Made by a program: the position numbers and the translations under genes
Notes under the pieces: generated by a model
What the model was told of the DNA's origin: nothing
The model's input: the letters and a program-made list of their open reading frames with translations, nothing else
Databases searched by the model: none
In this document: positions 29,797 to 63,005 of the stretch, in pieces
Numbering within the stretch: the stretch's first letter is position 1
Layout: each line of letters opens with the position of its first letter
Assembly: GCF_018446385.1 (NCBI RefSeq)
Contig: NC_056003.1
Span: forward strand, 26,471,198 to 26,535,197
Length of the DNA stretch: 64,000 bases
Source: Zingiber officinale
Lineage: Eukaryota; Streptophyta; Magnoliopsida; Zingiberales; Zingiberaceae
Direction of reading: 5' to 3'

Positions 29797-32330
29797 TATA
29801 TATATATATTTTTTGGTTTATTAAAATATCGAGCCATTATGGGCTATAGCAGATCTGACCTGACCCATATCAATCTCCCATGGGCTTTTGTAATAAAATT
29901 GAAATGTACCCTACATTTTGGCACTGACTCATCGAAATATTTGGCTTTGAGAAGATGAAGACTGAAGCAATATAATTAGAAGAGAGCTAGTTGACAATGG
30001 TGGTGGCTCCCAACTAATCGAGAGTGAGTAGGAAGCCATGATTCTTCCTCATTCGTATAGGATGACAATTCCGAGCATTATTGTCACGCCAAGTTTAGAA
30101 CAATCTCTTATAAAGTAGAGTAACATTGCGTACAATAGGATCCTTCCCCCAAGATCCGTTTTGACGAGAGTTTGCACGAGGCTACCACTACTACCTCAGG
30201 TACAAGTTCACTTTTCTTCTCTTGTTCGTTTAGTAATTTGGTGTTTCCCTATAATGGAAAAGTAATATATCTCATCTTTAGAGTAAAAGATGATTACACT
30301 CAACCCCAGCAGCCTTCCACTACCGGACCCACAATACATGGAAGAGAGGTAAATCACGAAAGACCTTTGACCTACCGAGCGACTTCCTAGGTGAGGGGGT
30401 CACTTGCACGGGGCAGCTCCATTGCTTCTGCCATTTGAATCGAAGTCCATTTGGAGCAACTCCTCATCTGAGTACCAACTCAACTACCCTATGGGGTCAC
30501 AATATATCTTATCTCATCTTGATTCTTGCATAATTTCCTTTTGCACTAGACCATTTACATTGCTATCGACTTTTCACGTAGATTCTAGGGATGACAATGA
30601 GTTACGTTTGGATTGGATTCCACCTCCTCCATCTATGCCCCCATTTATTATCTCTATACCTATATCCATCTTCATGTGCTCAACTTTCATCTTCATTCAT
30701 ATACCTGTCGGAGGATCAAATATTCATACTCATGTCCATCCTCATTTAATTGAACTGACAAAACTTTCTAACAAAACTCGAAGAAACCGAATTGATAAAA
30801 CATTAACGGTGATATTGATTTTGAAAACTATCACCATTATGAACCGAATTATCCATATATATATATAGAGAGAGAGAAATAATTGAATTAAATTTTTAAA
30901 TTTGATCTATTAATTTAGTTTAATTGAATTTTTACTCATCCCTACATGTTAATAGAATTTTGATTTTATTTGAGATTTAGGAAAATAAATTATATATATA
31001 TAAAAGAGCTCACTCAAGGCATATGTCACTAAATGCCTAGGGCCCCTATTATATTGGGCCCATCAAAATTTGTTATTATATATATTTTATATTTAGTAAA
31101 CAAAATATGATTATTATTTTAGAAATATATAAGTTTAGATGGTAAATATTTAAAATTATTGTTACAATCAAGATTCATTTTAATTTTTACAATCAAAATC
31201 ATTTTAAATTTTTTAGATTTGACCTAAATTTTTTAATTTTTTACATCAAAATTAATTTGATTGTTTTTAATTTTGTACTCACCTAAGTTAGATTTAATTG
31301 ATAATTTTACTTTTTTACTATTAAAAATATAGATTTGATTGGTAATTATTTTTTTTAATTAAAATTTAATTTTAATTTTAATTTTTTATTGATAAAAAAT
31401 TATTGTACTTTTAAATTAAGTTTAGTTAATAAATAAAATATATTTATTGATTATATTTATTTATAATTGATATTTTTTTATAAAAATATTTTGTAAGTCA
31501 AAAACATATTTAATATTATATTATTATATATTATAAAATTTTATTTCAATTTACTTTTCTCCTTCCTCCCCAAGTTTCTATGCACATTATCTCTCTTCTT
31601 ATTTTTAATTCACCGGGATGTTTGCCAGTTAAATATTTTTACTAAATAAATTTAATTGATAATTTATTAAAATTTATAAAAAGTTAATTAAATGCACGAA
31701 TGTTAATGTAAGATATCGGAAAGAATCTATCATAAGTAATTTTTTATATTTACTATTTGGGCATATTATTTTTATATCACAAAATAACAATTTTATTGTT
31801 GATTAACGTCAAGACTTGCTGTATCAAAATTAAAGTAACAATTAAAATGTATATTAATATATTATAATAATTTATTACTCATTGTTAGAGGTTAGTATTT
31901 TCAATATTTTATTAACAAAATTTAACTTTAATTATTAAATTAAAAATATTCATTAGAAAAAAAATATTATTTTTTAATAAATAATGAAAGTTTTTTTTTT
32001 TAAAAAACTTTTTTAAAATTTTAATTGAGTTTTTATACCAGATAAAATTATTACTATATGATCCATTTGTATACTCCTTCTAATTGTGAAAATAATCTTT
32101 TATAATTTATGAAACTGTCTTTGTAAATATCTCTAATAATATTTTATATATATTTTTTTAAAAAAAAATAAAATTTATTTAAAAAATATTAAAATTTTAA
32201 TTTTTGTTTTCTATGCCTAAATTTATATCCTAAAATATCCATACTCATCTATTTAATCAGGTAAAAAACCCATTATATCCTCCTCCATTCCTATTTATTT
32301 AATTGGGTAAAAAACCTCTCTATATCCATA
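29797..32330. other. AT-rich intergenic region, no gene seen
   Basis: Apart from the MITE-like element at 30586-30944 I find no supportable gene. Open frames at 30172-30390 and 30404-30868 have no recognisable domain. The sequence from 31.0 to 32.3 kb is extremely AT-rich with many homopolymer runs. A pair of similar segments near 32225-32270 and 32290-32330 (CCTCCATTCC / GGTAAAAAACC motifs) is a small local repeat. Confidence 0.5.
30586..30944. mobile_element. hAT-like MITE candidate
   Basis: The left end is TAGGGATGACAATGAGT and the right end is ACTCATCCCTA, so the termini are inverted repeats of about 10 bp. Size is about 360 bp with no coding. TAGGGATG-type ends are common in non-autonomous plant hAT elements. 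I could not find a convincing 8-bp target duplication, so the call is tentative. Confidence 0.45.
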
Positions 32331-32660
32331 TAAATATTCTTTGACTAGATAGATCATGAATATTTGTTTATATTTCTTTTCTGAATTAGATAACAAGTTC
32401 ATTAAAAAAATAAATTAAAATTGCAAAATTTGTAATGGGATTAGAAATATTATTCAGTTGCGCTAAATTAGGCTGAATTAGAAATATTTTTTTATATTTC
32501 TTTTCTGCATATAAAATATTCTTCTGTTGCGCCAAATTAGACTGATTAATTCTTATGGGATTAGAAATAAATTCAACTAGATTTCATAAACTTCAACTTA
32601 CACACCGCACCGCGCTAGCTTTCATCCCTTCTTACGACACCTTTCATCCCTTGAGCAAAG

Positions 32661-35600
32661 ATGTTTTATTCCCACTCGTTGTTGGCTAGGAAGACTCCTC
32701 TTGGAATGGTGTGGATTGCCTCCCACTCCCAGAAGATGAAGAAGACTCAGATAGACTGTGTCGACATCCAGTCTTCTGCAGGTTAATCTCTAGACTATTT
32801 CATTCAATCCTTTAGATTTTTAACAACGCAACCCGGGCCCGTACGAGTCTCCTTCTCGATTGTTTAGTTAGATTTGGTTGTTCTGTCTCAATAAGCGATC
32901 TACATATTTTGGACGTCCATTGCGGAGTTTCCTGTTAACTTGAAGAAATGAATCCGGGTCGTTATTTTATTCTTCTTCTTATATACAAAGGTAAAATTAT
33001 ATTTTTTACGTGTGTTTTAGTTGGATTTTTCAGAAGATGAATTCTTTATTTAGAATATCACCAAAACATGTCTATATAGATATGGATAAATGACCCTGTT
33101 GTTGTTTCCAGAGCAAGTTTAGGGTATATGCTTCATGTTCTATGTTTTCTTTTAATTTACAGAATGTTTACATTGGTTCATAAATGTATATTTGATGAAA
33201 TATTCGTTGCTTTTACTTTCTTTTTTTTGCTGATTTTTTTATTGTTTATTTTAAAACAAACTTTGTTGTAAATTTTGCATTAGGAAAAGGTTTTGTCATT
33301 TCCTTTTATAGGATGGCCTGATCTTATACTTCGGTTTTGTGATGCTTGTTTTTAACTTGTGTGTTTTGGTAGATGATATTATGTATCCTCGAGCTCCAAT
33401 TGCTTTGAGACTGTCGGGACATCTTTTGGTTGGCCTTGTCAAAATATACTCGCGGAAGGTGAATTATCTTTTCCAAGACTGTAACAGAATGTTAACTAAT
33501 ACAAGGGTGGTCGTTGCTTCGATACACATCAATTTACCCACAAATGCAGATAAAGCGCCATTTGAGTCTATAACATTACCTGAGACCTATAACCTTGATG
33601 CATTGGAGTTAGAGGAATCAATCAATCTTATTGAGTATGTAATTTTTCACTTTAAATTTTATAGGAAATTCAAGTGGTTTTTAGCTCTTTATAATTATTT
33701 CATATATTTTGATACAGTGATCCAGACAATCACCAAAAAGATTATGAGCAAATAACTTTGGCAGGTCAGTAAATTTTTTTGATTAAAAAAGGGTTATTTG
33801 AGAGATAGGAGTTTGCTAACAATGGATTTATTGTACTAAGCGAAGCTTCAGCAGAGCAAGATCAATATGTGGCTTTCTTCATTGATAAGGTCTCAAATAT
33901 TTTATGTCTTACATGTATCAATATTTTTATAATTTCAATAATCTAAATATTTAAGCTTTTATATGGGTTCCATGATTTAGGATATCAATACAAATTCATC
34001 AATACAACTACAAACTAGACATGATGCAGAGCCGATGGAAGAAGAGTAAGACCTTATGTTAAGTTTCTTACCGAAACACTCTGGCACTCATTTTCTAATT
34101 GTTCACTTTGATGCAGTGTGTTGCCGCCATTAGATGATGATTTGGATGTCAGCCGAGCTTTAAATTCTTCATCTTTTGAAGGTCCTGGTTCAAAGAGTCA
34201 TGGCAATGGTTCTTTTCAAACTTTTGATGCCAACAACAATATTCAAAATTTTCAAAAAATTGAGGTTATGCGTGACAATAACTTAGAGCTTGAGAACCGA
34301 TTAGAGTTGGACAATACTAGCAATGATGTTGAATTAAATGATCATTCTACATCAGTAACAAAGAGAAAGCATAGTTTTGATCCAATGCTTGAAGATATTT
34401 TGGTTTCTAGAGAGGAACCTTTGCCTTCAACATTTCATGTCACATCACCCGTGACTACATTTGATTCCAACATTGTAAACATGGATATATCTCCGGGTAA
34501 GATTTTTTTTATTCTCTGATATATATTTTTCAATTGTTTTGGGGTCAATCGATTTAACAATCAATAATTTTAATGTGTATGATAATATTGTTTGTGATTC
34601 ATCTTATTCTTTCTGTTTGTTGGTTGTTTGGTAGGTCAAGCCTTGCCTCACCTGGAGTTGGAGCTTCAACCTTCACCTCCTGTTAGAGAACGGAAACGAA
34701 AGAGAAGAATGAAAGAGCATTCATATGATGAGAACATTGTATTGTCAAATGTGTAAGTATCACTATATTTTTTTCCAGATATTTGCATCACTTGTCACAA
34801 TATTTCAGATTTCAAGTACTCTCATCATTATTCTTTGTTATTATACCTGGATTTTCACCTTTTAGCTATATCAATCTTCATAAAATAGTAGCATGGTTTG
34901 ATAATCGATTATATAATTGCTGAGTTATTTAAAGCACATGGAATGCCAAAATTCACAAATATAAGTATTATAAATTTATAAGTCAGTTTCTATCTCTCTA
35001 AACCTCAAACAAATATCTTATGAAACATAACCTTAGTAAAACTTATTATTATGGTTATCAAGCTCATATATTTGTAATTCAAATTGCACAATTTGATCCT
35101 ATTTAGGTCACAAATATGACAAATCTTATGCGTTGATCAGTCTGGATCAAGAATCAATCTAACATGAGTTGATCAAACTGATTTATCAAAATCACATTAG
35201 TAATAATTCATGGAAACAATACAAAAACCCAAACTAATTAATATATTTTGTTTTTTAGTTTGTGCTCAAACAACACAATGTTAAATTTTAAATGGGACAC
35301 AAAGACCCAAGTTAGGCATATAGTTGCATTTTTTTCTTTTTCTTATTCGTCTCTTTTCTCCCCTCTCTAATTTGCTATCGGCACCATACAATTGGAATAG
35401 TGACACTACTAAAATAATATTGTTTCAGTCATATATTGAATCTTTTGAACCTTTAACAAATCATATGAAAATGAAGTATTTTTTAAACAAATGATGTTAT
35501 TTGTTCATTAGTGTTAATAATAGATACAATGGTTGTAGAATTTGCTTACATGATTAATTTAATTTTTTGTAAACATCATGGATTGACATTGTTTTTATAA

Positions 35601-37614
35601 ATCATACAATCTGTTTTTCTTTTAGAGACATGAAAAAACAACTTAAAGACACTACCGATTTAATTCGCAAGAGAAGGAAGGTTTCAGATGACCGCCAAAA
35701 TGAGCAAGTATTGCATGAAACACTGCAATTAGGTTAGTTTCCCTTTTCTTTTCTTTTCTTGTTTTCCATTTTTACAATTTTGAGTTATATGATCCTTAGT
35801 TTGAATCAAACATATATGCAGTGCGATCTCGTAAGCTCCAAGAGCTTTGTTCTAGACTCTTTCTTTCTCAAAGCAACAATTCGAGTCATATGGAAGCTTC
35901 ATCAGAGTTTGCAAATGAATTACCTCATGTTGCCTCAGAGGATCTGCAAAAAGAGCCTAAGCAACAAAATAATGATAGGAATACAGAACGAGAACAACAG
36001 GACAAGCTGAATGCAGTACCTGAGAATTCTCAATTCGATATGCATACTGATATCCAACCAAGAGAACAGGATGAGTTGCATCTAATACCAATACCTGAGA
36101 TTGCTCGATTTGATTTGTATAGTGGAGCGAATATAAATGAACCAATACAATCACCCTCCGCAGGAGTAGATATGACTCTCTTTAACACCACAATAGCAGA
36201 TTCAACTCATGACTTTGATAAGACTTTTGATACAGAGATATTACCTACAGTTGAAAGTTTTACTAGGACCAAAGCAACTAGTTATGCAATTGGAGCTAGC
36301 CTATTCTCTCTGGAGGAAGAACCACTTCAAAATAGCATGCCCAGAATTCCAAATGTGTTGCTATCTGTGGAGGAAGTAAGTTCCTTAGTAGAAGAATATC
36401 AGTGACACTACTTTCCATGTTTTACTTTAGTTAAGATTATTTCATACTAATTATATACCTTGCCTTGAATCTTTGATTTTGCTTTGTTTAGGATTTTGAT
36501 TTTCTTGATGCAAGTACCCAATCATCAGGTAAGATAAGTATATATTTTGTTTTTTCCTTTGCATACTTTGTTACATAGAAGTTCATAAATCTTAAAATAG
36601 TTGTCCTCATGCAGGTTATAAAGATAATGAAGCTGGAACTTTATCCGCACGGACTAGGTAAGAGACATGTGATTTATAATATATTTATTTTCTTCATTAA
36701 AACAAGTAGAAGAACAATGCTTATGTTATTAAAGTTTCTTCATGGTAGGGCTGTGGTGCAATTTCTTAAAAATCAATCACCACCTCAGAGTGGAGATAGA
36801 GAACATAGAGTTTTAAGTTTAAATGAAATCTTACAAGGACAAACAAGAAGACGGTGCGCGCAAATGTTCTTTGAAAGTTTGGTAATGTTATATTCTGAGA
36901 ACATTTGTTTTCCTTTTGATTAACATGATATGTGAACATTGTTAATTCTTCCATTAGAGAGTATTACAATTTAGCCATTTAGTGGTGAAATTAATTACCA
37001 GGGTTAAAGGAGGTCATGATGATTAACTATTCCCATAGTTAACATTTCCTTCTAGCTAAAACATTCTCTGTCAAATATCACAGAGGCAAAAACAATCTAG
37101 TCTCATCTCTAGATCGACTTAGGTTTTTATGAAGAACAAATTCCTTAAGAAGAGATCTTTGAATTAGTAACTCCCAAACATCACTTTTTCTTTCAAGCAA
37201 TATGTATTCTATATCTTAGATTTTGATGTGGTTTCTACTTATTGTAGGTACGTGTTTGGTCATTTTAAGTGTTTAGTCTTCATTTTATTAGAAATTCTTT
37301 AACTCAATTTATTAGGCGTAAGTATAAATTTCTTTTACCTTGAGTACATTTGATAGTCGCACATTGTTTCATTGGAATTTAAAACTAAGATCCATTTTCA
37401 TGATTGAATAACATTGTTAATCCTTGTTGTTTCATTTGAACTCTCGCTTTCTTTCGAGTACAAATAGAAAAGAAGTCTTTCATCTTTGTGCTTATTCGGA
37501 AATCTTTGTTGCTAGGTTCTAAAGACTTATGGGTTCTTAGATGTACAACAAGAAGAGGCATATGGCGATATTGTCATTTCTCCAAAACCTGCACTTTTTG
37601 CTACCAAGTTTTGA
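32661..37614 (+). CDS. RAD21/SCC1-like cohesin kleisin, copy 1, apparently intact
   Basis: The kleisin subunit closes the cohesin ring on SMC1/SMC3 and is cut by separase at anaphase. Exons: 32661-32781, 33373-33634, 33718-33764, 33852-33889, 33981-34045, 34117-34496, 34635-34752, 35626-35732, 35822-36375, 36492-36528, 36615-36657, 36749-36881, 37516-37614. All phases agree and give 667 aa. The start MFYSHSLLARKTPLGMVWIA and DDIMYPRAPIALRLSGHLLV are the Rad21/Rec8 N-terminal domain (residues ~1-110). RERKRKRRMKEHSYDE (~320-340) is a basic patch. RAVVQFL...LSLNEILQGQTRRRCAQMFF and EEAYGDIVISPKPAL (~591-665) form the C-terminal winged helix that binds the SMC1 head. It resembles the plant SYN2/SYN3/SYN4 (RAD21.1-like) group more than REC8; which one is not settled. 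Exon 4 is short (38 bp) and its acceptor was chosen by phase. Confidence 0.88.
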
Positions 37615-37689
37615 GGCGATATCTTCCACAGACTTGTCTGTATTGTATATAGAGGTTAAACTCTATCCAACCTGAATCTTAACTATTGT

Positions 37690-38045
37690 TTGCAACATTC
37701 AGCACGAACAGCACCATGAAGCACCACGGGGCGATGACCTTCTTCTGGGGAAGAACTCGGAGATTTTGTTCGCCAGCTGGCCCAGCACACACTAGTCGCC
37801 GTCTTCCTCCACTGGCCGGTAGAGTCAGCAGTGGAGGGTCTCAGCCACACCATCCTCCATGTCCTCCGCGTCGGCATGGGCTACCTTCTCATGATCGCCG
37901 TCATGTCCTTTAACAGTGGCATTCTCACCGGTGCTGTTGCCGGCCACGACAATGGGTTCCTAGCTCCTTTTCACTCTCCTGGCGCTTCAGAAGGAAGAAA
38001 TGGATTAATGTTGTCCGTGATGATGGCGAGAGTCCAACGGTTTTA
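37690..38045 (+). pseudogene. Broken COPT/Ctr copper transporter gene, copy 1
   Basis: About 100 bp after the kleisin stop, GC-rich sequence encodes pieces of a Ctr-family copper transporter. The start is MKHHGAMTFFWG (from 37716), the classic extracellular Met-containing start of TM1. In a shifted frame NSEILFASWPSTH follows. In a further frame (37831 on) comes LHVLRVGMGYLLMIAVMSFN, the TM2 region with the MxxxM-like metal path, then AVAGHDNGF of TM3. The pieces lie in different frames, with an in-frame stop after ASWPSTH, so a working protein is not expected. COPT proteins import Cu(I) at the plasma membrane or tonoplast. The same remnant follows kleisin copies 2 and 3. Confidence 0.8.
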
Positions 38046-40090: not shown

Positions 40091-40100
40091 TTTAAAATAA

Positions 40101-41994: not shown

Positions 41995-44900
41995 ATGTTC
42001 TACTCACACTCGTTGTTGGCTAAGAAGACGCCTCTTGGAATGGTGTGGATTGCTGCCCACTCTCAGAAGATGAAGAAGACTCAGATTGACTGGGTCGACA
42101 TCCAGTCTTCTGCAGGTTAATCTCTAGACTATTTTATTCTATCCCTTAGATTTTTAACAACGTGATATAGGCCCGTACTAGTCTCCTCGATTGTTTAGGT
42201 TAGATTTGGTTGTTCTGTCTCAATAAGCGAATCTAAATATTTTGGATGTCCACTGCGGAGTTTCCTCTTAACTTGAAGAAATGAATCCTGGTCGTTATTT
42301 TATTCTTCTTCTTATATACAAAGGCAAAATTATATATATTTTTTTATGTGTGTTTTAGTTGGATTTTACAGAAGATGAATTCTTTATTTGGAATATCGTC
42401 AAAATATATCTATATGGATATGGATAAATGACCCTGCTATTGTTTCCAGAGCAGGTTTAGGGTGTATGCTTCAAGTTCTATGTTTTCTATGCTTCACGTT
42501 CTATGGCCTGTGTACCTGCATGAACCTCCCTCCATATCCGTGCGGCCGGCACTAGGGGGACCACTAAGGTAGCGGATCTACCTTTTTTTAATTTACAGAA
42601 TGTTTACATTGGTTCATAAATGCATATTTGATGAAATATTCATTGCTTTTACTTTTTTTTTTGCTGATTCTTTCTATCGTTTTTTTTAAAACAAACTTTG
42701 TTGCAAATTTTGCATTACGAAAAGATTTTGTCATTTGGCTTTTATAGGATGGCCTGATCTTATACTTCGGTTTTGTGATGCTTGTTTTTAACTTGTGTGT
42801 TTTGGTAGATGATATTATGTATCCTCTAGCTGCAATTGCTTTGAGACTATCAAGACATCTTTTGGTTGGCCTTGTCAAAATATACTCATGGAAGATGAAT
42901 TATCTTTTCCAGGACTGTAACAGAATGTTAACAAATACAAGGGTGGTTGTTGCTTCGATACACATCAATTTACCCACAAATGCAGATAAAGCGCCATTTG
43001 AATCTATAACATTACCTGAGACCTATAACCTTGATGCATTGGAGTTAGAGGAATCAATCAATCTTATTGAGTATGTAATTTTTCACGTTAAATTTTATAG
43101 GATATTCAAGTGGTTCTTAGCTCTTCATAATTATTTACTTTGTTCATATATTTTGATACAGTGGCCCAGACAATCACCAAAAAGATTATGAGCAAATAAC
43201 TTTGGCAGGTCAGTAAGTTTTTTTGATTAAAATAGGGTTATGTGAGAGATAGGAGTTTGCTAACAATGGATTTATTGTACTAAGCGAAGCTTCAGTAGAG
43301 CAAGATCAATATGTGGCTTTCTTCATTGATAAGGTCTCAAATATTTTATGTTCTACATGTATCAATATTTTTATAATTTCAATAATCTAAATATTTAAGC
43401 TTTTATGTGGGTTCCATGATTTAGGATATCAATACAAATTCATCAATACAACTACAAACTAGACATGATGCAGAGCCCATGGAAGAAGAGTAAGGCCTTA
43501 TGTTAAGTTTCTTATTGAAAGACTCTGGCACTCATTTTCTAATTGTTCACTTTGATGCAGTGTGTTGCCGCCATTAGATGATGATTTGGATGTCAGCCGA
43601 GCTATAAATTCTACATCTTTTGAAGGTCTCGGTTCAAATATTCATGGCAATGGTTCTTTTCAAACTTTTGATTCCAACAACAATATTCAAAATTTTCAAA
43701 AAATTGAGGTTATGTGTGACAATAACTTAGAGCTTGAGAACCGATTAGAGTTGGACAATACTAGCAATGATGTTGAATTAAATGATCATTCTACATCAGT
43801 AACAAAGAGAAAGCATAGTTTTGATCCAATGCTTGAAGATATTTTGGTTTCTAGAGAGGAACCTTTGCCTTCAACATTTCATGTCACATCACCAGTGACT
43901 ACATTTGATTCCAACATTGCAAACATGGATATATCTTCTGGTAAGATTTTTTTTGTTCTCTGATATATATTTTTCAATTGTTTTGAGGTCAATCGACTTA
44001 ACAATCAATAATTTTAATTTGTATGATAATATTGTTTGTGATTCATCTTATTCTTTCTGTTTGTTGGTTGTTTGGTAGGTCAAGCCTTGCCTCACTTGGA
44101 ACCGGAGCTTCAACCTTCACCTCCTGTTAGAGAACGGAAACGAAAGAGAAGAATGAAAGAACATTCATATGATGAGAACATTGTATTGTCAAATGCGTAA
44201 GTATCACTAAATTTTTTTACAGATATTTACATCGCTTGTCACAATATTTCAGATTTCAAGTAGGGGTGAGCATTTGGTTAATTCGGTCTATAAATTAATC
44301 GAAAACCGATTTAGTATTGACTAACCGAATCAAATCAAAGTTTTACTAAAACTGAATTAACCGAATTAGTTATTTCAGTTAACACCGAATTAACTAAATT
44401 TGTTTAAAATAACAATAAAAAGAATTTATACAAAATTAATATCAAATTAACCGAATGCTCACCCCTAATTTCAAGTACTCTTATCATTATTCTTTGTTAT
44501 TATATCTGGATTTTCACCTTTTAGCTATATCAATCTTCATAAAATAGTAGCATGGTTTGATAATCGATTATATAATTGCTGAGTTATTTAAAGCACATGG
44601 AATGCCAAAATTCACAAATATAAGTATTATAAATTTATAAGTCAGTTTCTGTCTCTCTAAACCTCAAACAAATATCTTATGCAACATAACCTTAGTAAAA
44701 CTTATTATTATGGTTATCAAGCTCATATATTTTTAATTCAAATTGCACAATTTGATCCTATTTAGGTCACAAATATGACAAATCTTATGCTTTAATCAGT
44801 CTGGATCAAGAATCAGTCTAACATGAGTTGATCAAACTGATTTATCAAAAATCACATTAGTAATAATTCATGGAAACAATACAGAAGCCCAAGCTAATTA

Positions 44901-49593: not shown

Positions 49594-51190
49594 TCTCAAT
49601 AAGTGAATCTACATATTTTGGACGTCCATTGCGGAGTTTCCCGTTAACTTGAAGAAATGAATCCTGATCGTTATTTTATTCTTCTTCTTATATACAAAGG
49701 CGAAATTATATTTTTTATGTGTGTTTTAGTTGGATTTTTCAGAAGATGAATTTTTTATTTAGAATGTCGTCAAAAAAATGTCTATATGGATATGGATAAA
49801 TGACCCTGCTGTTATTTCCAGAGCAGGTTTAGGGTGTATGCTTCACGTTTTATGTTTTCTTTTAATTTACCAAATGCTTACATTGGTTCATAAATGTATA
49901 TTTGATGAAATATTCGTTGCTTTTACTTTCTTTTTTGCTGATTCTTTCTATTGTTTTTTTTTAAAACAAACTTTGTTGTAAATTTTGCATTAGGAAAAGA
50001 TTTTGTCATTTCCTTTTATAGGATGGCCTGATCTTATACTTCGGTTCTGTGATGTTTGTTTTTAACTTGTGTGTTTTGGTAGATGATATTATGTATCCTC
50101 GAGCTCCAATTGCTTTGAGACTGTCGGGATATCTTTTGGTTGGCCTTGTCAAAATATACTCGTGGAAGGTGAATTATCTTTTCCAATACTGTAACAGAAT
50201 GTTAACTAATACAAGGGTGGCCGATACTTCAATACACATCAATTTACCCACAAATAAAGATAAAGCGCCATTTGAGTCTATAACATTACCTGAGACCTAT
50301 AACCTTGATGCATTGGAGTTAGATGAATCAATCAATCTTATTGAGTATGTAATTTTTCACTTTAAATTTTATAGGAAATTCAAGTGGTTCTTATCTCTTC
50401 ATAATTATTTACTTTGTTCATATATTTTGATACAGTGGCCCAGACAATCACCAAAAAGATTATGAGCAAATAACTTTGGCAGGTCAGTAAGTTTTTTTGA
50501 TTAAAAAAAGTTATGTGAGAGATAGGAGTTTGCTAACAATAGATTTATTGTACTAAGCGAAGCTTCAGTAGAGCAAGATCAATATGTGGCTTTCTTCATT
50601 GATAAGGTCTCAAATATTTTATGTTCTACATGTATCAATATTTTTATAATTTCAATAATCTAAATATTTAAGCTTTTATATGGGTTCCATGATTTAGGAT
50701 ATCAATACAAATTCATCAATACAACTACAAACTAGACATGATGCAGAGCACATGGAAGAAGAGTAAGGCCTTATGTCAAGTTTCTTATTGAAACAATTTG
50801 GCGCTCATTTTCTAAGTGTTCACTTTGATGCAGTGTGTTGCCTCCATTTCATGATGATTTGGATGCTATTGTCAGCCGAGCTCTAAATTCTGCATCTTTT
50901 GAAGGTCCTGGTTCAAATATTCATGGCAATGGTTCTTTTCAAACTTTTGATGCCAACAACAATATTCAATATTTTCAAAAAATTGAGGTTATGCGTGACA
51001 ATAACTTAGAGCTTGAGAACCGATTAGAGTTGGACAATACTAGCAATGATGTTGAATTAAATGATCATTCTACATCAGTAACAAAGAGAAAGCATAGTTT
51101 TGATCCAATGCTTGAAGATATTTTGGTTTCTAGAGAGGAACCTTTGCCTTCAACATTTCATGTCACATCACCCATGACTACATTTGATTC

Positions 51191-52219
51191 TGTAGGACCG
51201 TTAGATTCGATAGAGGGGGGGGGGGTGAATATCGATTCGAAAAACAAGAGTTTAAACGCAGCGGAAAAGTAAAATAGACACAATGGTTTTACTTCGTTCG
51301 GAGCCTGTGACGACTCCTACTCGAAGGCCCGTGGTCCTTGACCACTTTCGTTGGGCAATCACTAGCAATTCGGAATAATGATTACAAAAGAACCGTACAG
51401 GGAATGCTAATGAAACTGAAAAACAAATAACGACAAAAAGGGAAAAGAATGGAGCGTAGTGTCGGAGCTTTGTTGGCGTCGCACTGAGCGTCGAGCAGCA
51501 AGACCAGCAGTAGAAGAGTTCTCAGCTTGATTGATTGATTCTGAAGCTCCTGTCTGGGGCTTCTTTTATATGCTGTTCCGGGCGCCTGGATCCCTTCCGG
51601 GTGCCTGGAATGTGACGTAACTACTCAAACCAAGATGCTCCACGTGGCGACGACTTGGCTGGATAGAATTCGCCTTCCGGGCGCCCGGACCTCCAGGCGC
51701 CCGGATCCCCTCCGGGCGCCCGGACCACCTTGTTCCAGAAAAACTCCTTTTTCCTGCAAAACAAAGTTAGTCCGAGGCAAATATACATCCTGTAAAACAA
51801 ATTGTTAGCACAGTTAAAGTTCAACAGATGGATAAAAAGAGTATGACTTAGATTCCGTCTTTCCGAGACCGGAATCTAGTCACGATCTCGACTTAGACAT
51901 CCGAAATGGATCTAAGCCGGATCGACGCCTAATGTCCCCTTCCCGGGAACGCATCCTCATAGTCACTCCCCTCCAGTGACTTACCTCACTTACCTGCCAG
52001 ACGTCCGGTCAGCCCGTCGACCCGTCTGGACTTCTTGCCAGCTAACCGGTCAGCCCGTCGACCTAGCTGGACTTCGTGCCAGACATCCGGTCAGCCCGTC
52101 GGCCTGTCTGGACTTCTCCTGCACACTCGATCAAAGTGTCAGACAACAACAAGACTAACTTAACCTATTTGTCATTCATCAAAACCTGGGTTAAATCGTT
52201 AGTGCTAACCGCACCAACA
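51191..52219 (-). repeat. LTR (left on the + strand, 3' LTR of the element)
   Basis: Direct repeat of 58021-59093. It holds GGGCGCCCGGA repeats (about 51565-51725) and CCGGTCAGCCCGTCGACC repeats (about 51995-52110). Compared with the other LTR it has extra GGCGCCCGG copies and fewer CCGGTCAGCC copies, showing that these internal arrays change quickly. Confidence 0.95.
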
Positions 52220-53409
52220 ATCTCCCCCTTTTTGATGGAATGACAACCTGGTTAAGTTAGTGAAAACATATGCAAGAAACAACATGCTTTTATGTGGTTT
52301 TAAAGTTAGTTTGTGTTTTCAAATTGGTTTAGCTAACTTAACCACCTAACCCTCCTCCCCCTTTGGCATTCATCAAAAATAAGCAAAGGTAAACAATCAT
52401 AGTGAAGAGTCACTGTAAAAGGTAATCAAATTTTGAAATATATCTAAGTTTGGTTCAAAAATTAAGCGATAAAAGTATAATTTTTAACACCAAGTTAACA
52501 AAATAGTCAAGTTGACTTGGGGGAGACAAGTTGAATTTTGAAAAGTATAAATTCAAAGTTAATCAAGTTTAACTTTTCAAGTGTGTAAAAAAAAAAATTT
52601 AAATCAGGTTTTCCAAATTTACTTTTAAAAAAATAAATTTTCAACTTCAAATTTTCAAAACCAAACTGAAAGTTGATTTTTCAAGCATATGTTACAAAAC
52701 TGAATAAGTTTAAATTTGCAATATTCAACTTTTAAAATCAGGTTTTTTTTAAAAAAATTAGGTGGGATTAAACTTAGTTAAATTTAACTTTTTGAAAACT
52801 GTTTTTTTTTAAAAATAACATAGATGTAAAAAAACATTTTTCAAACACACATCAATTTCTCCCCCTGAACTTGACATTTATCTTTAACCAGCTGTCTAAC
52901 CAATTAGGTACTAACTAACTATCAGAAGATAGTAGCTTTCACTTGGTTAGTCAGATTAAGTTAATTATAACCAGTCAGTGTTTGACTTGACTGATGAACT
53001 TTAATCTGATTAATATCTGAATTGTATTTAACGTCCAGACTTATGCTGATGCACTGAAATAAGCATCTTAAGTCTAGACAGTTGGCCTATGCATCTCACC
53101 CCTTTCTATGTTTGTCAAACACAAGCAAGGTAAACCTAAGGTGTTGGTGAGATGCTCAAAAACTAGTCCTATGGGTACATGCTTTCTAAGGATGTAAAAC
53201 TAGTCTAAGGCCAAAACTGTTTTTGAAAGTCTAAAAATGGAAAGTTTGAAAACATACAGTTTTAACTTATAAGTTGGTAAAATCATTTTTGAAAGTATTT
53301 TTGAAAGATCCTAGCCTATCAAGATAGAACATTTTCAATGTAAGTCTGAAATACCACTAGATAGATCCAAAATAATTTACAGGTAGTGTAACTACAGAAG
53401 TGAGTCATA

Positions 53410-54600
53410 ACTAGATCTACTGAGAAGATGAAGGGGGTGGTCCAGACCCTAAGGATCGGAGAAGCGCCATCAGCTCAGTGTGTCGGGTATCCCCGGCAGC
53501 TCGTAACTCGGCTACCTCTCGCCGAATGTCCCGATGAAAGTCAGAGTTCTCCTGCTGGAGACTCGCCATAGCTCTCTCTAGTCTGGTCATACGGTCAGCT
53601 AGAGAGCGATGAGCGTGACGTGGTGCTCGAGCTGGGGGCGGTGGTGGAGCCGGAGCGGCTTCCTCTGGAAATAGTGCGAGCATGAACTCGTCCACCTGTG
53701 CGTCTGGATCGGGCTGGTGCTGTGCCCCCCTCCGCCAAGACATAGTCCCGTCATCTCTATCTATCTGGATACCGGCTAGGGAGAAGTTTCGAGCTGCTAT
53801 AACATCGAACTCGGTCATATGGGCAATGTCTCCTCTAGTGACATCAATGTGCAACGAGGACATATAGGCTGTCAGAATGTGACCAAATGGCATATGGACT
53901 CGACTATCAGTCACGAATCCAGCTGAGTAGATAATGGTGGAGAAGATATGTAGGCTGATGTCAATGTCTAACCTATGAATTAGGGCATAAAGTAAGAACG
54001 AATGGAATGGGCGCATCACAGCGATGTCCCGAGTAGTCAGTGGTAAAATGCAAAGGACTACAACCCTATAAGAGCGTAGTCCTGGACCCGAAGTTCTACT
54101 GACCTAAACTGTGTCACAGTGGGATCTCTCTCTCCCCCGAAAAAATACGAATAAATCGTATCGAGAGTAATATGTGAGTAGGGATCTTCGAATGGTAGAT
54201 CCCTCGGAGGATAGCACAAAAAGGAGCAAGTAGATGGACGCAACTCTAAAAACTCTCGGATAGTCGTAGGGGAAAATACGATATCAGTGCCTGCTGCCCT
54301 AGTGGTATAGGTGAGATCGTCTACTTTCACCAGGTTATTGCAAAATTCGGCACACAGACTTATGTTTATTGGACTGGTACATTCGACAAGGTTCCTTAAG
54401 TTATAGTGGCCTATAACCTCTAAAGCGGAGGGACATGACCTTAAAAAGAACGATCTATCTATGCAGGTAGTCCTAATTGCCTTATAAATGGTTGACTCAA
54501 ACTTAATCCTAAGTTCGTCTGTGGGAAACCTAGGGTCTGTACTAGCATTGGAGGGTCCAGCACCAGTATTTGTTCGTTTCCTACTGTATATAAATAAAAG
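53410..54600 (-). other. Plant transposon-protein domain region inside the LTR element
   Basis: This fossil part of the element sits where pol would be expected. Recognisable pieces are VFSPTTIREFLELRPSTCSF and MRPFHSFLLYALIHRLDIDI, followed by a proline-rich stretch (APAPPPPPARAP) and a coiled-coil-like MTRLERAMASLQQENSDFHR segment. This matches the 'putative plant transposon protein' domain (PF20167-like, from memory) found in many plant retroelements, function unknown. A TATA-like TATAAATAAG lies upstream on the same strand at 54831-54840, so this part may have its own promoter. Confidence 0.65.
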
Positions 54601-54830
54601 AATATTCTAAGAAAAGATTGAGAAGACAAATTCTAATAAAATTTTCAGAGAGGGGAAGAATTTTTACCGAGGAGCCATCGAAAAATATAGATTTGACGAC
54701 CTCGGTTGAATCGCAACAGCGTCTTCACCGCAAGAAAATTTAGATTTAGAGTACTTTCGCACTGAGGTTCGGAGTGAACCTTGGCAAAAGTGAGAATTAG
54801 TGGTGCAAAGATTGGGGGCGCCTGCTGCCC

Positions 54831-54840
54831 CTTATTTATA
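54831..54840 (-). promoter_or_regulatory. TATA-like box before the transposon-protein region
   Basis: TATAAATAAG on the - strand, about 165 bp before the first ATG of that region and just downstream of GGGCGCCCGG repeats. Assigned by motif only. Confidence 0.4.
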
Positions 54841-54945
54841 GGGGACTCCGGGCGCCCGGGGTTGCTAGGGCGGGGCGCCCGGATCCCCATTCGGGCGCCC
54901 CGGAGGGGAATACCAGGGGCGCCCGCCCCTGGTTTTTTTTTTTTT

Positions 54946-55575
54946 TGGAAATTAGGTTTGAAGTTAAGTTTTAAGTTTAAAATAATTTTTTAAGTTTAGA
55001 ATTTTGAAATTAATTTTTTAAGTTTAAAATTAGAATTTTGAAATTAGTTTAAAATTTTGAAAATAATTTTTAAGTTTAAAATTAGAATTTTGAAATTAAT
55101 TTTTTAAGTTTAAAATTTTGAAAATAATTTTTAAGTTTAAAATTAAAATTTTGAAATTAATTTTTAAGTTTAAAATTAACATTTTGAAATTAATTTTTAA
55201 GTTAAAATTAAAATTTTGAAATTAATTTTTAAGTTTAAAATTTTGAAAATAATTTTTAAGTTTAAAATTAAAATTTTGAAATTAATTTTTAAGTTTAAAA
55301 TTAAAATTTTGAAATTAATTTTTAAGTTAAAATTAAAATTTTGAAATTAATTTTTAAGTTAAAAATTTTGAAAATAATTTTTAAGTTTAAAATTAGAATT
55401 TTGAAATTAATTTTTAAGTTTAAAATTAGAATTTTGAAATTAATTTTTAAGTTTAAAATTTTGAAAATAATTTTTAAGTTTAAAATTCTGAAAATAATTT
55501 TTAAGTTTAAAATTCTGAAAATAATTTTTAAGTTTAAAATTAAAATTTTGAAATTAATTTTTAAGTTTAAAATTT
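54946..55575. repeat. Minisatellite TTTTTAAGTTTAAAATT.., about 630 bp
   Basis: About 18-20 head-to-tail units of 22-37 bp built from TTTGAAATTAATTTTTAAG and TTTAAAATTAGAA alternate in two length classes. They lie within the LTR element between its gag and transposon-protein regions. The lysine/phenylalanine-rich open frame at 55341-55640 on the + strand is only a translation of the repeat. Confidence 0.9.
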
Positions 55576-58020
55576 TAAACCTTATTCATCTCACCCGATC
55601 TATATTATCAATCAGGGAATCCTATGATTTTGTGAGATGAAATTAGATATATTTTTTTTCATGGAGTTTTGGTTTAACTTGAGTTAGATTCAGATTTAGC
55701 TTTGGTCTCCACAAATAGGCATTCTTCGGATAAATTTCTAAGCTTGGTGAGTCACATGGACGTCATTAGAAGTAACCAACCTTTCGAGATTTTCCGAATA
55801 GTCCTATCCACGGAGCTTAGTACTAAATCTTGGTCTAACTGATTAGGATCCATTTAAGGGTAGCTTCGGTCAGTTCCACTTGGCCAAATGCACCAGATCG
55901 AAGCCATATCTTTCTAGACATGCGATGCCCAAGCTTCCCTAACGTACTATCATCCAAAAACTTCTCCAGTATCATGATTCAAGTTAAACTTGGTCTCTAA
56001 TTCTAATTACCCTGCCGGGTTAGTTAGTTTTGGGCTACCCTGTCGGGTAAGTTAGTTTTGGAGGTGCCAGCTATTCTGGAGCCTCCCCCTGAATTATTGG
56101 CCATTAATTTAAGTTTTGATTTTAGGCTTGTGTCGATTCTTTTTATAGTTATAGTTAACTTGGTGATAATTTTGTTGTTTTTTAAACTGTTTAGATTTTG
56201 AATTTGATTTAGGTTTGTATTTTGGATTTTGGTTTGGTTTATTCAATTTTATATAATGTATTTTTTCTTTAGGTATATAATATTGATTAAGTCCTACTTG
56301 CGTGGTCAGACACGCTTTCGGAACCCAAGCTAGATTGGTTGACTTGTATTGGGTTATTAATGATTTGAAGGTTTTATTTGAATTCGACTTATATCCTAGT
56401 CCGGTTTTATTATAACATGCTTTTTGATTATTTAGGATTAGGTCTAAATTTTTTGATCTTGTTGTGAATTTTTCTAACATCTCCTTTAAATTGTTTATTT
56501 CATTTTTTAATGATAAATTCTCCTCCTCAAGTGTTAGATCTTGAGTTGGATTCGAATTTTTTAATTGTTCCTTGAGGTTCTGATTTTCCTCAAGAAGTAA
56601 TTTGTTTTCATTTTCTACTTTGGTTAATTTACTATTTAAACAAGAAATGATTCTAAAAATTTTTTTGTTTAAATTAAAATATACCTCATTCGAGCCTTCG
56701 GAAACGAGTACGGACTCGTGGCTTGTTTCGGGTTCGGACCCGTCTTCATCTTCCGACTCATTTTCAGTTTCGGCTTCGCGGGCCATCAGTGCGAGGTGGC
56801 TCTGATGTTTCTGCTCTTCTTCCTCCGATTCGTCCGAGGAGTCGTCCCACGTTGCTTTGAGTGCTTTCTTTTTGGTTGGCTTTGGTTTGTCGAACTTCAG
56901 TTTTGGGCATTCGTTCTTGTAATGTCCCTTTTTGTTGCAGCCGTAGCAAGTCACGTTCTTTTGTTCTGAGGGAGAGCTGATCTTTTGTTTTGCTGAAGCT
57001 CCTCTTTCTCCTGGTGAACATTTTTCTTACCAAGTTCACCAGGTGTTCTTCGTCTTCAGAATCTTGATCGGAGTCTTCTTCAAGTTCAAGCTTGCTTTTC
57101 TTTTCTTTGGAGGAACCTGCAAATAGAGCTATACCTTTCTCGGCTCCAGCATTAGTTTGTTCGTGTAATTCTAATTCACAAAACAGCTCGTCTAATTTTA
57201 AGTTAGAAAGATTCTTGGAAATTTTGTAGGCATCCACTATTGATGCCCACAAACTATTACGTGGAAAGGCGTTTAACACGTACCTTATTAAGTCTCTGTT
57301 CTCCATTTGGTGGCCTATCGCATGAAGCCTGTTGAGGATGTCCTTGATCCTCGCGTGTAGTTGATTCGCTGTTTCTCCTTCCTGCATTTTTATATTAAAA
57401 ATTTTATTTAGAAGCAAGTCTCGTTTTGTTACCTTAGCGTCGCTCGTTCCCTCGTGCAGTTCGATCAGCTTGTCCCATAGCTCTTTAGCGTTTTTGTGTG
57501 GACCGACTCTGTTCAGTTCTTCTCTTGTCAATCCGCACTGTAGAGTGTTGATCGCTTTATTTTCTGTTGATGCTTTTTTCTTGAGATCTGCTGTCCAGTC
57601 TTCAGGATCCACTAGATTCTCGGCATTGTCCACTGGAATTTTGTAGGGTCTCGTAATGCTCATCCACTGGTCGAAGTCTGTTTTGAGGTAAACCTTCATG
57701 CGCTTCTTCCAGTAAGGGAAGTCGTCCCCGTTGAAGAGTGGAGGTCGCACTGTGCTGAATCCTTCTTGTTGGGACATTCTGTGCACAGGTAAATAACCAA
57801 AAAAAATATCCCAAGACTTGGTCTTGGATTAGTAGTGCGGGAAGAGAAAAATAGAAAAAAAATCTAGATTCGTGTTGCACTAATTTAAATTGTTTAGATA
57901 AATATTAAGTTAACGAAACTCCAGTTTTAAAATTAATTATCGAACAAAAACAAAAAAAAATCACCCCCTGTCTGATTGGTGGTTGCACCAAATCAGAGCG
58001 GTACCTGCTCTGATACCACT

Positions 58021-59093
58021 TGTAGGACCGTTAGATTCGATAGAGGGGGGGGTGAATATCGATTCGAAAAACAAGAGTTTAAACGCAGCGGAAAAGTAAA
58101 ATAGACACAATGGTTTTACTTCGTTCGGATCCTGTGACGACTCCTACTCGAAGGCCCGTGGTCCTTGACCACTTTCATTGGGCAATCACTAGCAATTCGG
58201 AATAATGATTACAAAAGAACCGTACAGGGAATGCTAATGAAACTGAAAAACAAATACCGACAAAAAGGGAAAAGAACGGAGCGTAGTGTCGGAGCTTTGT
58301 TGGCGTCGCACTGAGCGTCGAGCAGCAAGACCAGCAGTAGAAGAGTTCTCAGCTTGATTGATTGATTCTGAAGCTCCTGTTTGGGGCTTCTTTTATATGC
58401 TGTTCCGGGCGCCTGGATCCCTTCCGGGCGCCTGGAATGTGACGTAACTGCTCAAACCAAGATGCTCCACGTGGCGACGACTTGGCTGGATAGAATTCGC
58501 CTTCCGGGCGCCCAGACTACCTTGTTCCAGAAAAACTCCTTTTTCCTGCAAAACAAAGTTAGTCCGAGGCAAATATACATCCTGTAAAACAAATTGTTAG
58601 CACAGTTAAAGTTCAACAGATGGATAAAAAGAGTATGACTTAGATTCCGTCTTTCCGAGACCGGAATCTAGTCACGATCTCGACTTAGACATCCGAAATG
58701 GATCTAAGCCGGATCGACGCCTAATGTCCCCTTCCCGGGAACGCGTCCTCACAGTCACTCCCCTCCAGTGACTTACCTCACTTACCTGCCAGACGTCCGG
58801 TCAGCCCGTCGACCCGTCTGGACTTCTTGCCAGCTATCCGGTCAGCCTGTCGACCTAGCTGGACTTCTCGCCAAGCGTCCGGTCAGCCCGTTGACCCGCT
58901 TGGATTCCTCGCCAGCTATCCGGTCAGCCCGTCGACCTAGCTGGACTTCGTGCCAGACATCCGGTCAGCCCGTCGACCTGTCTAGACTTCTCCTGCACAC
59001 TCGATCAAAGTGTCAGACAACAACAAGACTAACTTAACCTATTTGTCATTCATCAAAACCTGGGTTAAATCGTTAGTGCTAACCGCACCAACA
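58021..59093 (-). repeat. LTR (right on the + strand, 5' LTR of the element)
   Basis: Direct repeat of 51191-52219. It carries five CCGGTCAGCC-type units against three in the partner and lacks one GGCGCCCGG block. It directly abuts the primer-binding site on its left and the GATTC duplication on its right. Confidence 0.95.
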
Positions 59094-62000
59094 GATTCCA
59101 ACATTGCAAACATGGATATATCTCCGAGTAAGATCTTTTTTATTCTCTGATATATATTTTTCAATTGTTTTGGGGTCAATCAACTTAACAATCAATACTT
59201 TTAATGTGTACGATAATATTATTTGTGATTCATCTTATTCTTTCTGTTTGTTGGCTGTTTGGTAGGTCAAGCCTTGCCTCACTTGGAGCTGGAGCTTCAA
59301 CCTTCACCTCCTGTTAGAGAACGGAAACGAAAGAGAAGAATGAAAGAACATTCATATGATGAGAACGTTGTATTGTCAAATGCGCAAGTATCACTAAATT
59401 TTTTTACAGATATTTGCATCACTTGTCACAATATTTCAGTTTCAAGTATTCTTATCATTATTCTTTGTTATTATACTTGGATTTTCACCTTTTAGCTATA
59501 TCAATCTTCATAAAATAGTAGCATGGTTTGATGATTGATTATATAATTGCTGAGTTATTTAAAGCACATGGAATGCCAAAATTCACAAATACAAGTATTA
59601 TAAATTTATAAGTCAGTTTCTATCTCTCTAAACCTCAAACAAATATCTTATGAAACATAACCTTAGTAAAACTTATTATTATGGTTATTAAGCTCATATA
59701 TTTTTAATTCAAATTGCACAATTTGATCCTATTTAGGTCACAAATATGGATCAAGAATCAGTCTAACACGAGTTGATCAAATAGATTTATCAAAAAATCA
59801 CATCAGTAATAATTCATGGAAACAATACAAAAACCCAAGCAAATTAATATATTTTGTTTTTTAGTTTGTGCTCAAACAACACAATGTTAAATTTTAAATG
59901 GGACACAAAGACCCAAGTTAGGCATATAGTTGCATTTTTTTTCTTTTTCTTATTCGTCTCTTTTCTCCCCTCTCTAATTTACTATCGACACCATACAATT
60001 GGAATAGTGACACTACTAAAATAATATTGTGTCAGTCATATAATGAATCTTTTGAACCTTTAACAAATCATATGAAAATGAAGTTTTTTTAAACAAATGA
60101 TGCTATTTGTTCATTAGTGTTAATAATAGATACAATGGTTGTAGAATTTGCTTACATGATTAATTTAATTTTTTGTAAACATCTTGGATTGACATTGGTT
60201 TTATAAATCATACAATCTGTTTTTTTTTTCCAGAGACATGAAAAAACAACTTAAAGACACTACCGATTTAATTCGCAAGTGGAGGAAGGTTTCAGATGAC
60301 CGCCAAAATGAGCAAGTATTGCATGAAACACTGCTATTAGGTTAGTTTCCCTTTTCTTTTCTTTTCTTGTTTTTCATTTTTACATTTTGAGTTATATGAT
60401 CCTTAGTTTGAATCAAACATATATGCAGTGTGATATGGTAAGCTCCAAGAGCTTTGTTCTAGATCCTTTCTTTTTCAAAGCCGCAACAATTCGAGTCATA
60501 TGGAAGCTTCATCAGAGTTTGCAAATGAATTACCTCATGTTGCCTCAGAGGATCTGCAAAAAGAGCCTAAGCAACAAAATAATGACAGGAATACAGAACC
60601 AGAACAACAGGACAAGCTGAATGCAGTACCTGAGAATTCTCGATTCGATATGCATACTGATATCCAACCAGGACAACAGAATGAGTTGCATCTAATACCA
60701 ATACCTGAGATTGCTCGATTTGATTTGTATAGTGGAGCGAATATAAATGAAACAATACAATCACCCTCCGCAGGAGTCGATATGACTCTCTTTAACACCA
60801 CAATAGCAGATTCAACTCCTGACTTTGATAAGACTTTTGATACAGAGATATTACCTACAGTTGAAAGTTTTACTAGGACCAAAGCAACTAGTTATGCAAT
60901 TGGAGCTAGCCTATTCTCTCTGGAGGAAGAACCACTTCAAAATAGCATGCCCAGAATTCCAAATGTGTTGCTATCTGTGGAGGAAGTAAGTTCCTTAGTA
61001 GAAGAATATCAGTGACACTACTTTCCATGTTTTACTTTAGTTAAGATTATTTCATACTAATTATATACCTTGCCTTGAATCTTTGATTTTGCTTTGTTTA
61101 GGATTTTGATTTTCTTGATGCAAGTACCCAATCATCAGGTAAGATAAGTATATATTTTGTTTTTTCCTTTGCATACTTTGTTACATAGAAGTTCATAAAT
61201 CTTAAAATAGTTGTCCTCATTCAGGTTATAAAGATAATGAAGCTGGAACTTTATCCGCACGGACTAGGTAAGAGACATGTGATTTATAATATATTTATTT
61301 TCTTCATTAAAACAAGTAGAAGAACAATGCTTATGTTATTAAAGTTTCTTCATGGTAGGGCTGTGGTGCAATTTCTTAAAAATCAATCACCACCTCAGAG
61401 TGGAGATAGAGAACATAGAGTTTTAAGTTTAAATGATATCTTACAAGGACAAACAAGAAGACGGTGCGCGCAAATGTTCTTTGAAAGTTTGGTAATGTTA
61501 TATTCTGAGAACATTTGTTTTCCTTTTGATTAACATGATATGTGAACATTGTTAATTCTTCCATTAGAGAGTATTACAATTTAGCCATTTAGTGGTGAAA
61601 TTAATTACCAGGGTTAAAGGAGGTCATGATGATTAACTATTCCCATAGTTAACATTTCCTTCTAGCTAAAACATTCTCTGTCAAATATCAGAGGCAAAAA
61701 CAATCTAGTCTCATCTCTAGATCGACTTAGGTTTTTATGAAGAACAAATTCCTTAAGAAGAGATCTTTGGATTAGTAACTCCCAAACATCACTTTTTCTT
61801 TCAAGCAATATGTATTCTATATCTTAGATTTTGATGTGGTTTCTACTTATTGTAGGTACGCGTTTGGTCATTTTAAGTGTTTAGTCTTCATTTTATTAGA
61901 AATTCTTTAACTCAATTTATTAGGCGTAAGTATAAATTTCTTTTACCTTGAGTGCATTTGATAGTTGCACATTGTTTCATTGGAATTTGAAACTAAGATC

Positions 62001-62309
62001 CATTTTCATGATTGAATAACATTGTTAATCCTTGTTGTTTCATTTGAACTCTCGCTTTCTTTCGAGTACAAATAGAAAAGAAGTCTTTCATCTTTGTGCT
62101 TATTCCGAAATCTTTGTTGCTAGGTTCTAAAGACTTATGGGTTCTTAGATGTACAACAAGAAGAGGCATATGGCGATATTGCCATTTCTCCAAAACCTGC
62201 ACTTTTTGCTACCAAGTTTTGAGGCGATATCTTCCACAGACTTGTCTGTATTGTATATAGAGGTTAAACTCTATCCAACCTGAATCTTAACTATTGTTTG
62301 CAACATTCA

Positions 62310-62455
62310 GCACGAACAGCACCATGAAGCACCACGGGGCGATGACCTTCTTCTGGGGAAGAACTCGGAGATTTTGTTCGCCAGCTGGCCCAGCACACAC
62401 TTGTCGCCGTCTTCCTCCGCTGGCCGGTATAGTCAGCAGTGGTGGGTTGGCGTTG
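62310..62455 (+). pseudogene. COPT/Ctr copper transporter remnant, copy 3, cut short
   Basis: It keeps the MKHHGAMTFFWG start (ATG at 62324-62326) and the shifted NSEILFASWPSTH piece. It stops at GTCAGCAGTGG, where the sequence jumps to TGGGTTGGCGTTG, which in unit 1 lies about 640 bp further on (38461). The TM2-TM3 part is therefore deleted. The shared AGTGRTGG bases at the junction suggest a short-homology deletion. Confidence 0.75.
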
Positions 62456-62636: not shown

Positions 62637-62701
62637 TTTATCTTCTCCATGTTGGATGGGTTGACGGGAGCGCTAAGATGAATATATTCGTTTTTGTCAC
62701 A
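62637..62701 (+). mobile_element. 5'-truncated SINE in the tail of unit 3
   Basis: A 65-bp insertion between perfect ATGTTAAATGAACAATAT repeats (62619-62636 and 62702-62719). It occupies the same site as 38660-38748, with the same 3' end (ATTCGTTTTTGTCAC). Confidence 0.75.
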
Positions 62702-62876
62702 ATGTTAAATGAACAATATAAGCAGATAAATGAGAAAATGCTTTTATTAATTGATTAGAGAACAATAAGTGCCGATTAAGAGAAAAGTTTAACATAATTA
62801 TTAAATAAATTTGGAATTTAAACACATTCGGGACGAGTTGGATTTATCTTTTTTGTTTTTAAGGAAGAAGTCCTAG

Positions 62877-63005
62877 CTACTTATTGCAATTATAGGAACA
62901 GAGTTGGATTACCTGAAGCGTCTTCGTCTTGGCCTTGGTCTTGGTGTCGAGCTCGACAACAATGGTGGACTTGGAATCCAAGGCAAACTCGTTGCGGGTG
63001 AACCA
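62877..63005 (-). pseudogene. Orphan exon of an unrecognised gene, tail of unit 3
   Basis: On the - strand an open stretch reads FTRNEFALDSKSTIVVELDT, then KTKAKTKTLQ, followed by a GTAATCC donor-like site. It is probably the 3' edge of a coding exon. I do not recognise the protein. A shorter, altered copy lies at 49200-49290 but none after unit 1. No complete gene is visible around it. Confidence 0.4.

Follow-up and report, generated by a model that had tools for sequence, protein, structure and literature searches.

Why does the genome of ginger (Zingiber officinale) carry RAD21-like cohesin genes side by side, and is any of them still an intact gene? The window, i.e. the whole stretch of 64,000 nucleotides (nt) analysed here (26471198-26535197 of contig NC_056003.1, hereafter C18), contains three RAD21-like copies, all on the + strand, and the array is real. 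For genome-wide searches, 3.09 Gb in 211 contigs were scanned. With a probability of roughly 0.75, we regard the array as a duplicated, decaying branch of one plant alpha-kleisin gene, termed D. An initial annotation had described the three tandem copies; the gene D, a splice lesion common to the array, a co-duplicated Ctr copper-transporter gene and a copy number of three versus two on the two haplotypes are new. The event is ordinary in kind and is best understood as gene duplication followed by decay.

Structure and lesions of the array copies

The exon maps of the array copies were obtained by alignment to the intact paralog D18, the C18 allele of D, which served as a ruler. Copies 1 and 2 share exon lengths of 121, 262, 47, 50, 65, 380, 118, 107, 554, 37, 43, 133 and 99 nt, and both copies of a second array on contig C17 have the same 13 lengths (sum 2016 nt). 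Copy 3 comprises exons 2-13; exon 6 is interrupted and exon 9 measures 557 nt. The maps agree with the initial annotation, which had listed 13 exons of equal length in copies 1 and 2 and exons 2-13 in copy 3. Identity among the window copies is 94-97% over most of the gene and 86-91% in some 5' stretches, which is far above chance. If copy 1 is spliced in frame, its product contains the SMC3-binding domain Rad21_Rec8_N (107.3 bits, Pfam cut-off 23.1) and the SMC1-binding domain Rad21_Rec8 (69.3 bits, cut-off 22.7). Exon 2 of copies 2 and 3 also exceeds the Rad21_Rec8_N cut-off, as does the last exon of each window copy (3/3) that of Rad21_Rec8. Compared to D, copy 1 lacks ten codons of exon 8, two of exon 6 and nine of exon 9, and has two additional codons in exon 9; the 30 nt of exon 8 are missing from all five array copies.

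The acceptor of exon 4 reads AA instead of AG in all five array copies. An AG was found at this site in D18, in its C17 allele D17 and in three of four further relatives described below (L037, L039, L040); in the fourth, L038, the search pattern was not found. The acceptor loss is therefore older than the spread of the array or has spread through it. The nearest AG lies one base further and leads to a frameshift, with a stop after 186 amino acids (aa) in copy 1 and 147 aa in copy 2. Another AG, six bases into exon 4 and five past the nearest one, keeps the frame, and copy 1 would then encode 669 aa. Splicing is expected to favour the first AG downstream. With 11 of 12 acceptors AG and all 12 donors GT, copy 1 falls short of the full canonical set of splice sites expected of an intact gene, and the earlier statement that it is open throughout now depends on which downstream AG serves.

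Beyond this common loss, four of the five copies carry private lesions. In C17 copy 1, exons 7 and 11 no longer have an AG acceptor (AT and TG, respectively), and C17 copy 2 has acquired a nonsense codon in exon 6. The stop codon of C18 copy 2 is changed from TGA to TGT and the frame extends by 16 codons, counting the changed codon, in accordance with the readthrough noticed initially. C18 copy 3, correctly described as broken and devoid of exon 1, has a GC donor at exon 7 and a long terminal repeat (LTR) retrotransposon in exon 6. GC donors are in use in plants, so this donor alone need not break the copy. The LTR element is 7.9 kb long, is bordered by a 5-bp target duplication (GATTC) and has a copia-type gag frame on the - strand; between its two LTRs, 14 differences were counted over 991 compared sites (Kimura two-parameter distance 0.014). 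A tandem repeat block was seen inside it (54943-55579). C18 copy 1 is the sole array copy in which no lesion was found beyond the common ones.

Intron 7 of copy 2 contains a segment of about 205 bases (44262-44462) that looks like a small transposon. Its inverted counterpart is located at 49384-49592, where the homology of copy 3 starts. It is also present in both C17 copies, and C18 copies 1 and 3 gave no match at the corresponding position.

Origin from gene D and copy number on the two haplotypes

Searching the genome with Rad21_Rec8 (Pfam) resulted in nine matches: three in the window, two at C17:26.75 Mb, single ones at C17:34.06 Mb and C18:33.90 Mb, and a C9/C10 pair. D18 (C18:33.90 Mb) and D17 (C17, about 34.05-34.06 Mb) have an open 690-codon frame in 13 exons, with AG at 12 of 12 acceptors and GT at 12 of 12 donors. 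Among the seven modelled gene copies, only these two alleles have full canonical splice sites. Compared with solved cohesin entries, D matched the Rad21 homolog chain 6wg3_C (2.4e-30). Given its intact frame, D would supply the normal protein. D is situated 7.3-7.4 Mb from the array on the same chromosomes (C18 and C17).

Judged from their sequences, the array copies are intron-containing derivatives of D. Their introns can still be aligned with the D introns at about 82%, and a processed (retro)pseudogene is ruled out by the retained introns. Approximately 1.7 kb behind D on C18, an open Ctr frame of 149 codons was detected (PF04145, E 9.4e-18); sequence from behind copy 1 was also found behind D on C17, the openness of the Ctr frame having been checked on C18 only. 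The DNA behind copy 1 is 79% identical to the site behind D over 328 bases. Ctr remnants follow all five array copies, those of C18 copy 3 and C17 copy 2 being short. Thus, two neighbouring genes were copied together as a block. The alignable sequence starts 25 bases upstream of the ATG in copy 2 and reaches 85 bases past the stop of copy 1, after which the Ctr remnant follows; the promoter of D was not recognisable ahead of the array copies in this alignment. A unit captured by a transposon was also considered. The 501 bases upstream of copy 2 had at least 15 genome matches and the 761 bases downstream of copy 1 at least 54, mostly short and at about query positions 566-746; with these counts as lower bounds, this origin was rejected, though not firmly excluded.

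The two-copy array on C17 is at the allelic place and its flanks are collinear with those on C18 (e.g. 63170-69937 at 95.4%). Kleisin matches pair on the neighbouring contigs C17/C18, C9/C10, C7/C8 and C13/C14, and the assembly seems to hold both haplotypes. In a tree of the 5' half of the gene, C18 copy 2 is joined with C17 copy 2 (100/99); the 3' half joins C18 copies 1 and 3 (95/94). In one stretch of 500 columns, 2 of 497 sites distinguish copies 1 and 3, against 10-14 in the nine other pairs. Such mosaic similarity would be expected from unequal exchange or conversion within the array.

For dating, a rate of ~5.5e-9 per site and year was computed from a ginger-Musa synonymous divergence (Ks) of 0.7 at 63.57 million years ago (MYA), as given in passages of PMC8342452, which also place a whole-genome duplication at about 27 MYA. 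The synonymous divergence (dS) between D and the array is 0.18-0.22, corresponding to roughly 17-20 million years, later than the whole-genome duplication. Within the array, dS is 0.027-0.073, i.e. about 2.4-6.6 million years, also a rough age.

Two more damaged relatives of D, L039 (C18:33780501-33790500) and L040 (C17:33911001-33921000), are located 111 and 136 kb before D. They carry its 5' flank at mostly 94-97% identity; exon 1 and the exons from 8 onward were not found. L037 (C5:20456001-20465000) and L038 (C6:7824001-7833500, - strand) are broken relatives in which the match ends just past exon 9. They lie in opposite orientation and at non-corresponding positions of neighbouring contigs, which are presumed to be homologues; this could reflect either a large inversion or independent insertions. 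Other kleisin-like loci are C7:121.64/C8:131.06, C9:65.21/C10:61.30, C17:119.96/C18:107.92, C13:130.86/C14:108.79 (a fragment with a stop) and C9:117.6/C10:110.8 Mb; apart from the fragment, we take them, by resemblance, to be RAD21.3-, RAD21.2- and REC8-like genes.

The features of the array are compiled in Table 1. Elsewhere in the window, 22455-29727 is probably another LTR element: repeats at 22455-23198 and 28987-29727 are 98.1% alike, and the sequence they enclose has a reverse transcriptase (+ strand) and a Transposase_28 match (- strand).

Table 1. Coordinates of array features in the window
Feature	Position	Strand	Remark
Copy 1 (W1)	32661..37614	+	13 exons by alignment to D18; N- and C-terminal Pfam kleisin domains
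W1 exons 1-5	32661-32781, 33373-33634, 33718-33764, 33840-33889, 33981-34045	+	
Shifted exon-4 acceptor, copy 1	33838..33845	+	AA 33838-33839; AG 33839-33840 (frameshift); AG 33844-33845 (in frame)
W1 exons 6-9	34117-34496, 34635-34752, 35626-35732, 35822-36375	+	
W1 exons 10-13	36492-36528, 36615-36657, 36749-36881, 37516-37614	+	
Ctr remnant behind copy 1	37707..37962	+	broken; tblastn with the open Ctr frame adjoining D
Copy 2 (W2)	41995..47279	+	13 exons, first 41995-42115, last 47181-47279
Ctr remnant behind copy 2	47389..47684	+	broken; tblastn with the open Ctr frame adjoining D
Copy 3 (W3), 5' part	49591..51190	+	homology begins within intron 1; exons 2-5 and start of exon 6
LTR retrotransposon in copy 3 exon 6	51191..59093	.	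LTRs 51191-52219 and 58021-59093; ends TGTAGG...CCAACA
Copy 3, 3' part	59094..62222	+	remainder of exon 6, exons 7-13; exon 7 donor GC
Ctr remnant behind copy 3	62315..62400	+	short; only residues 21-49 recognisable

Selective constraint and alternative explanations

Codon alignments were anchored on D18 and columns inserted relative to D18 were omitted. The single stop codon in C17 copy 2 was coded as missing, and a mask was applied to exon 1 of copy 3; L037-L040 were left out of the trees. The ratio dN/dS (omega) was estimated by maximum likelihood under a codon model, using a purpose-written script not checked against a published program. All p-values of the branch tests are uncorrected (six per-branch tests with the first tree, plus the second-tree and exon-partition tests). 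The first tree joins C18 copy 2 with C17 copy 2, the second C18 copies 1 and 3.

Exon and intron identities are 99.18 and 98.55% between the D alleles and about 88 and 82% between D and the array. Within the array, exon minus intron identity is merely -0.2 to +0.7 points in all ten pairs (e.g. 96.97/96.28, 97.51/97.56 and 95.41/95.61). The D alleles have an omega of 0.26, the array one of 0.61 and the branch joining the two one of 0.58. Two results weigh against the explanation as a decaying branch of D. The omega of the array falls below 1 (p = 0.005) and is indistinguishable from the value of the joining branch (p = 0.84), so relaxation is argued mainly from the exon/intron comparison. Furthermore, exons 1-4 favour the first tree and exons 5-13 the second; since no single tree fits, the branch values are approximate. 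In favour of the explanation, small exon indels relative to D (-6, -30, -27, +6, and +3 in copy 3) are all multiples of three, with the LTR target duplication in copy 3 as the exception; of the intron indels between D18 and copy 1, 19 of 55 are multiples of three. Some indels may have arisen on the side of D.

Per-branch dN/dS, suggested in the initial annotation as a check, gave a divided answer: the shared stems are constrained, copy 1 is significantly below 1 under one tree only, and the other tips do not differ from 1. With the first tree, omega was 0.40 for copy 1 (p = 0.016) and 0.18 for the stem (p = 0.005); C17 copy 1 (0.65), C18 copy 2 (0.67), C18 copy 3 (0.98) and C17 copy 2 (1.34) showed no difference from 1, and tip-specific values gave no significant gain in fit (p = 0.10). 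The second tree fits all codons better (log-likelihood -4681.6 vs. -4693.7). It yields 0.15 for the stem of copies 1 and 3 (p = 0.0004) and 0.55 for copy 1 alone (p = 0.17). With copy 1 and the stem set aside, omega of the array tips is 0.83, no different from 1 (p = 0.41). Constraint on the array is weak, not absent, and is found on the shared stems and perhaps on copy 1.

These values bear on the possibility that C18 copy 1 serves as a second, functional cohesin gene and, under selection, produces a 669-aa kleisin via the AG six bases into exon 4. The predicted protein, without two residues at exon 4 and ten of exon 8, would keep both Pfam kleisin domains, and the tip omega of the first tree and the lack of further lesions speak for it. 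In exons 5-13, the stem of copies 1 and 3 remains constrained (0.20, p = 0.007) under the tree which these exons favour. However, that stem is also the stem of copy 3, which is plainly broken, the tip value loses significance under the better-fitting tree, and for exons 5-13 alone the two trees give 0.435 (p = 0.05) and 0.545 (p = 0.22). Moreover, the frameshifting AG one nucleotide past the lost one is expected to be preferred, and the allelic C17 copy has two more acceptors lost. We consider a functional copy 1 unlikely, albeit the least unlikely of the alternatives. Copy 1 may still be expressed, and its product may be either the 669-aa cohesin subunit or mostly the truncated 186-aa one.

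If selection instead favoured the array for producing a short N-terminal kleisin fragment via the shifted acceptor, one able to bind SMC3 without ring closure, the acceptor loss in all array copies and its absence from D and the three relatives with the site found would be accounted for, as would an array omega of 0.42 in exons 1-4 (p = 0.004) vs. 0.75 in exons 5-13 (p = 0.21; up to 0.83, likewise no different from 1). Yet the joining branch (0.39 vs. 0.65) and D itself (0.085 vs. 0.38) show a like difference, which thus reflects the domain, not a fragment. The constrained stem in exons 5-13, the unequal length of the predicted fragment in copies 1 and 2, and the missing exon 1 of copy 3 further argue against it, and we give this explanation very little credence. 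A variant, in which the acceptor shift is a switch between the N-terminal fragment and the full-length form via the two AGs five bases apart, is just as improbable; if true, the locus would be a dosage-variable cohesin regulator whose copy number differs between two haplotypes. Finally, the array, or its third copy, could be an assembly artefact from a misplaced haplotype. The apparent presence of both haplotypes would allow this, and the identity between copy 2 and C17 copy 2 (97.0%) approaches that between the two D alleles (97.7%). However, C17 holds its own two-copy array at the collinear place, which argues against a simple artefact, copy 3 has its private features (absent exon 1, LTR element, GC donor), and the five copies differ by 2.5-4.6% from one another in exons; an artefact is hence highly unlikely.

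The duplicated and decaying branch of D remains our preferred explanation. D and the adjoining Ctr gene would have been copied as a block to the array site, and unequal exchange or conversion between units would then have altered the copy number. The in-frame AG in exon 4 may have let some in-frame product form, which would explain the residual constraint. Most likely, the duplicate was kept coding for a time and is now decaying; the array was coding after its origin, probably for some time past the acceptor change, and has probably been losing constraint since. The local, fairly recent decay of a RAD21-type array proposed initially is borne out by the allelic array and the private lesions. 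Neofunctionalisation, proposed alongside it, is not borne out, given the weak constraint, the same lesions and the intact parent on both haplotypes.

Comparison with known systems

The locus is a clear example of cohesin gene copies multiplied and lost, with unequal copy number on two homologues. It also calls for caution in annotation, as automatic calls may list several RAD21 genes here. D and the array presumably belong to the RAD21.1/SYN2-type alpha-kleisins, an assignment from resemblance and not from a tree with named plant kleisins; if D is of the RAD21.1 class, the plant could tolerate either a loss or a surplus of the extra copies. In Arabidopsis, RAD21.1 is needed for double-strand break repair, whilst rad21.1 rad21.3 double mutants remain viable and fertile, according to passages of PMC4273318.

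Among the papers listed in literature searches, no title or abstract opening named a plant tandem RAD21 array, which is weak evidence, full texts being outside the search; at the same level, no work on RAD21 or cohesin genes of Zingiber or banana was found. Such an array is likewise not described in passages of PMC10218516, PMC8342452, PMC4273318 and PMC9957857. The Rad21 paralogs of Fusarium oxysporum (PMC6591460, by title and partial text) are similar in that extra rad21 copies exist beside a normal set; these are fungal and titled functional, whereas the ginger array is dominated by lesions.

With RAD21.1/SYN2-type kleisins, D and copy 1 have the N- and C-terminal kleisin domains in common. 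The array differs in lacking the canonical exon-4 acceptor and ten exon-8 codons, with four of its five copies damaged further. The closest likeness is to local tandem duplicates and pseudogenes: intron-containing copies arranged head to tail, a co-duplicated neighbour, mosaic similarity, a transposon insertion and a copy number that differs between homologues. From these, the array does not differ in kind; the one less usual aspect is that the gene encodes a cohesin kleisin.

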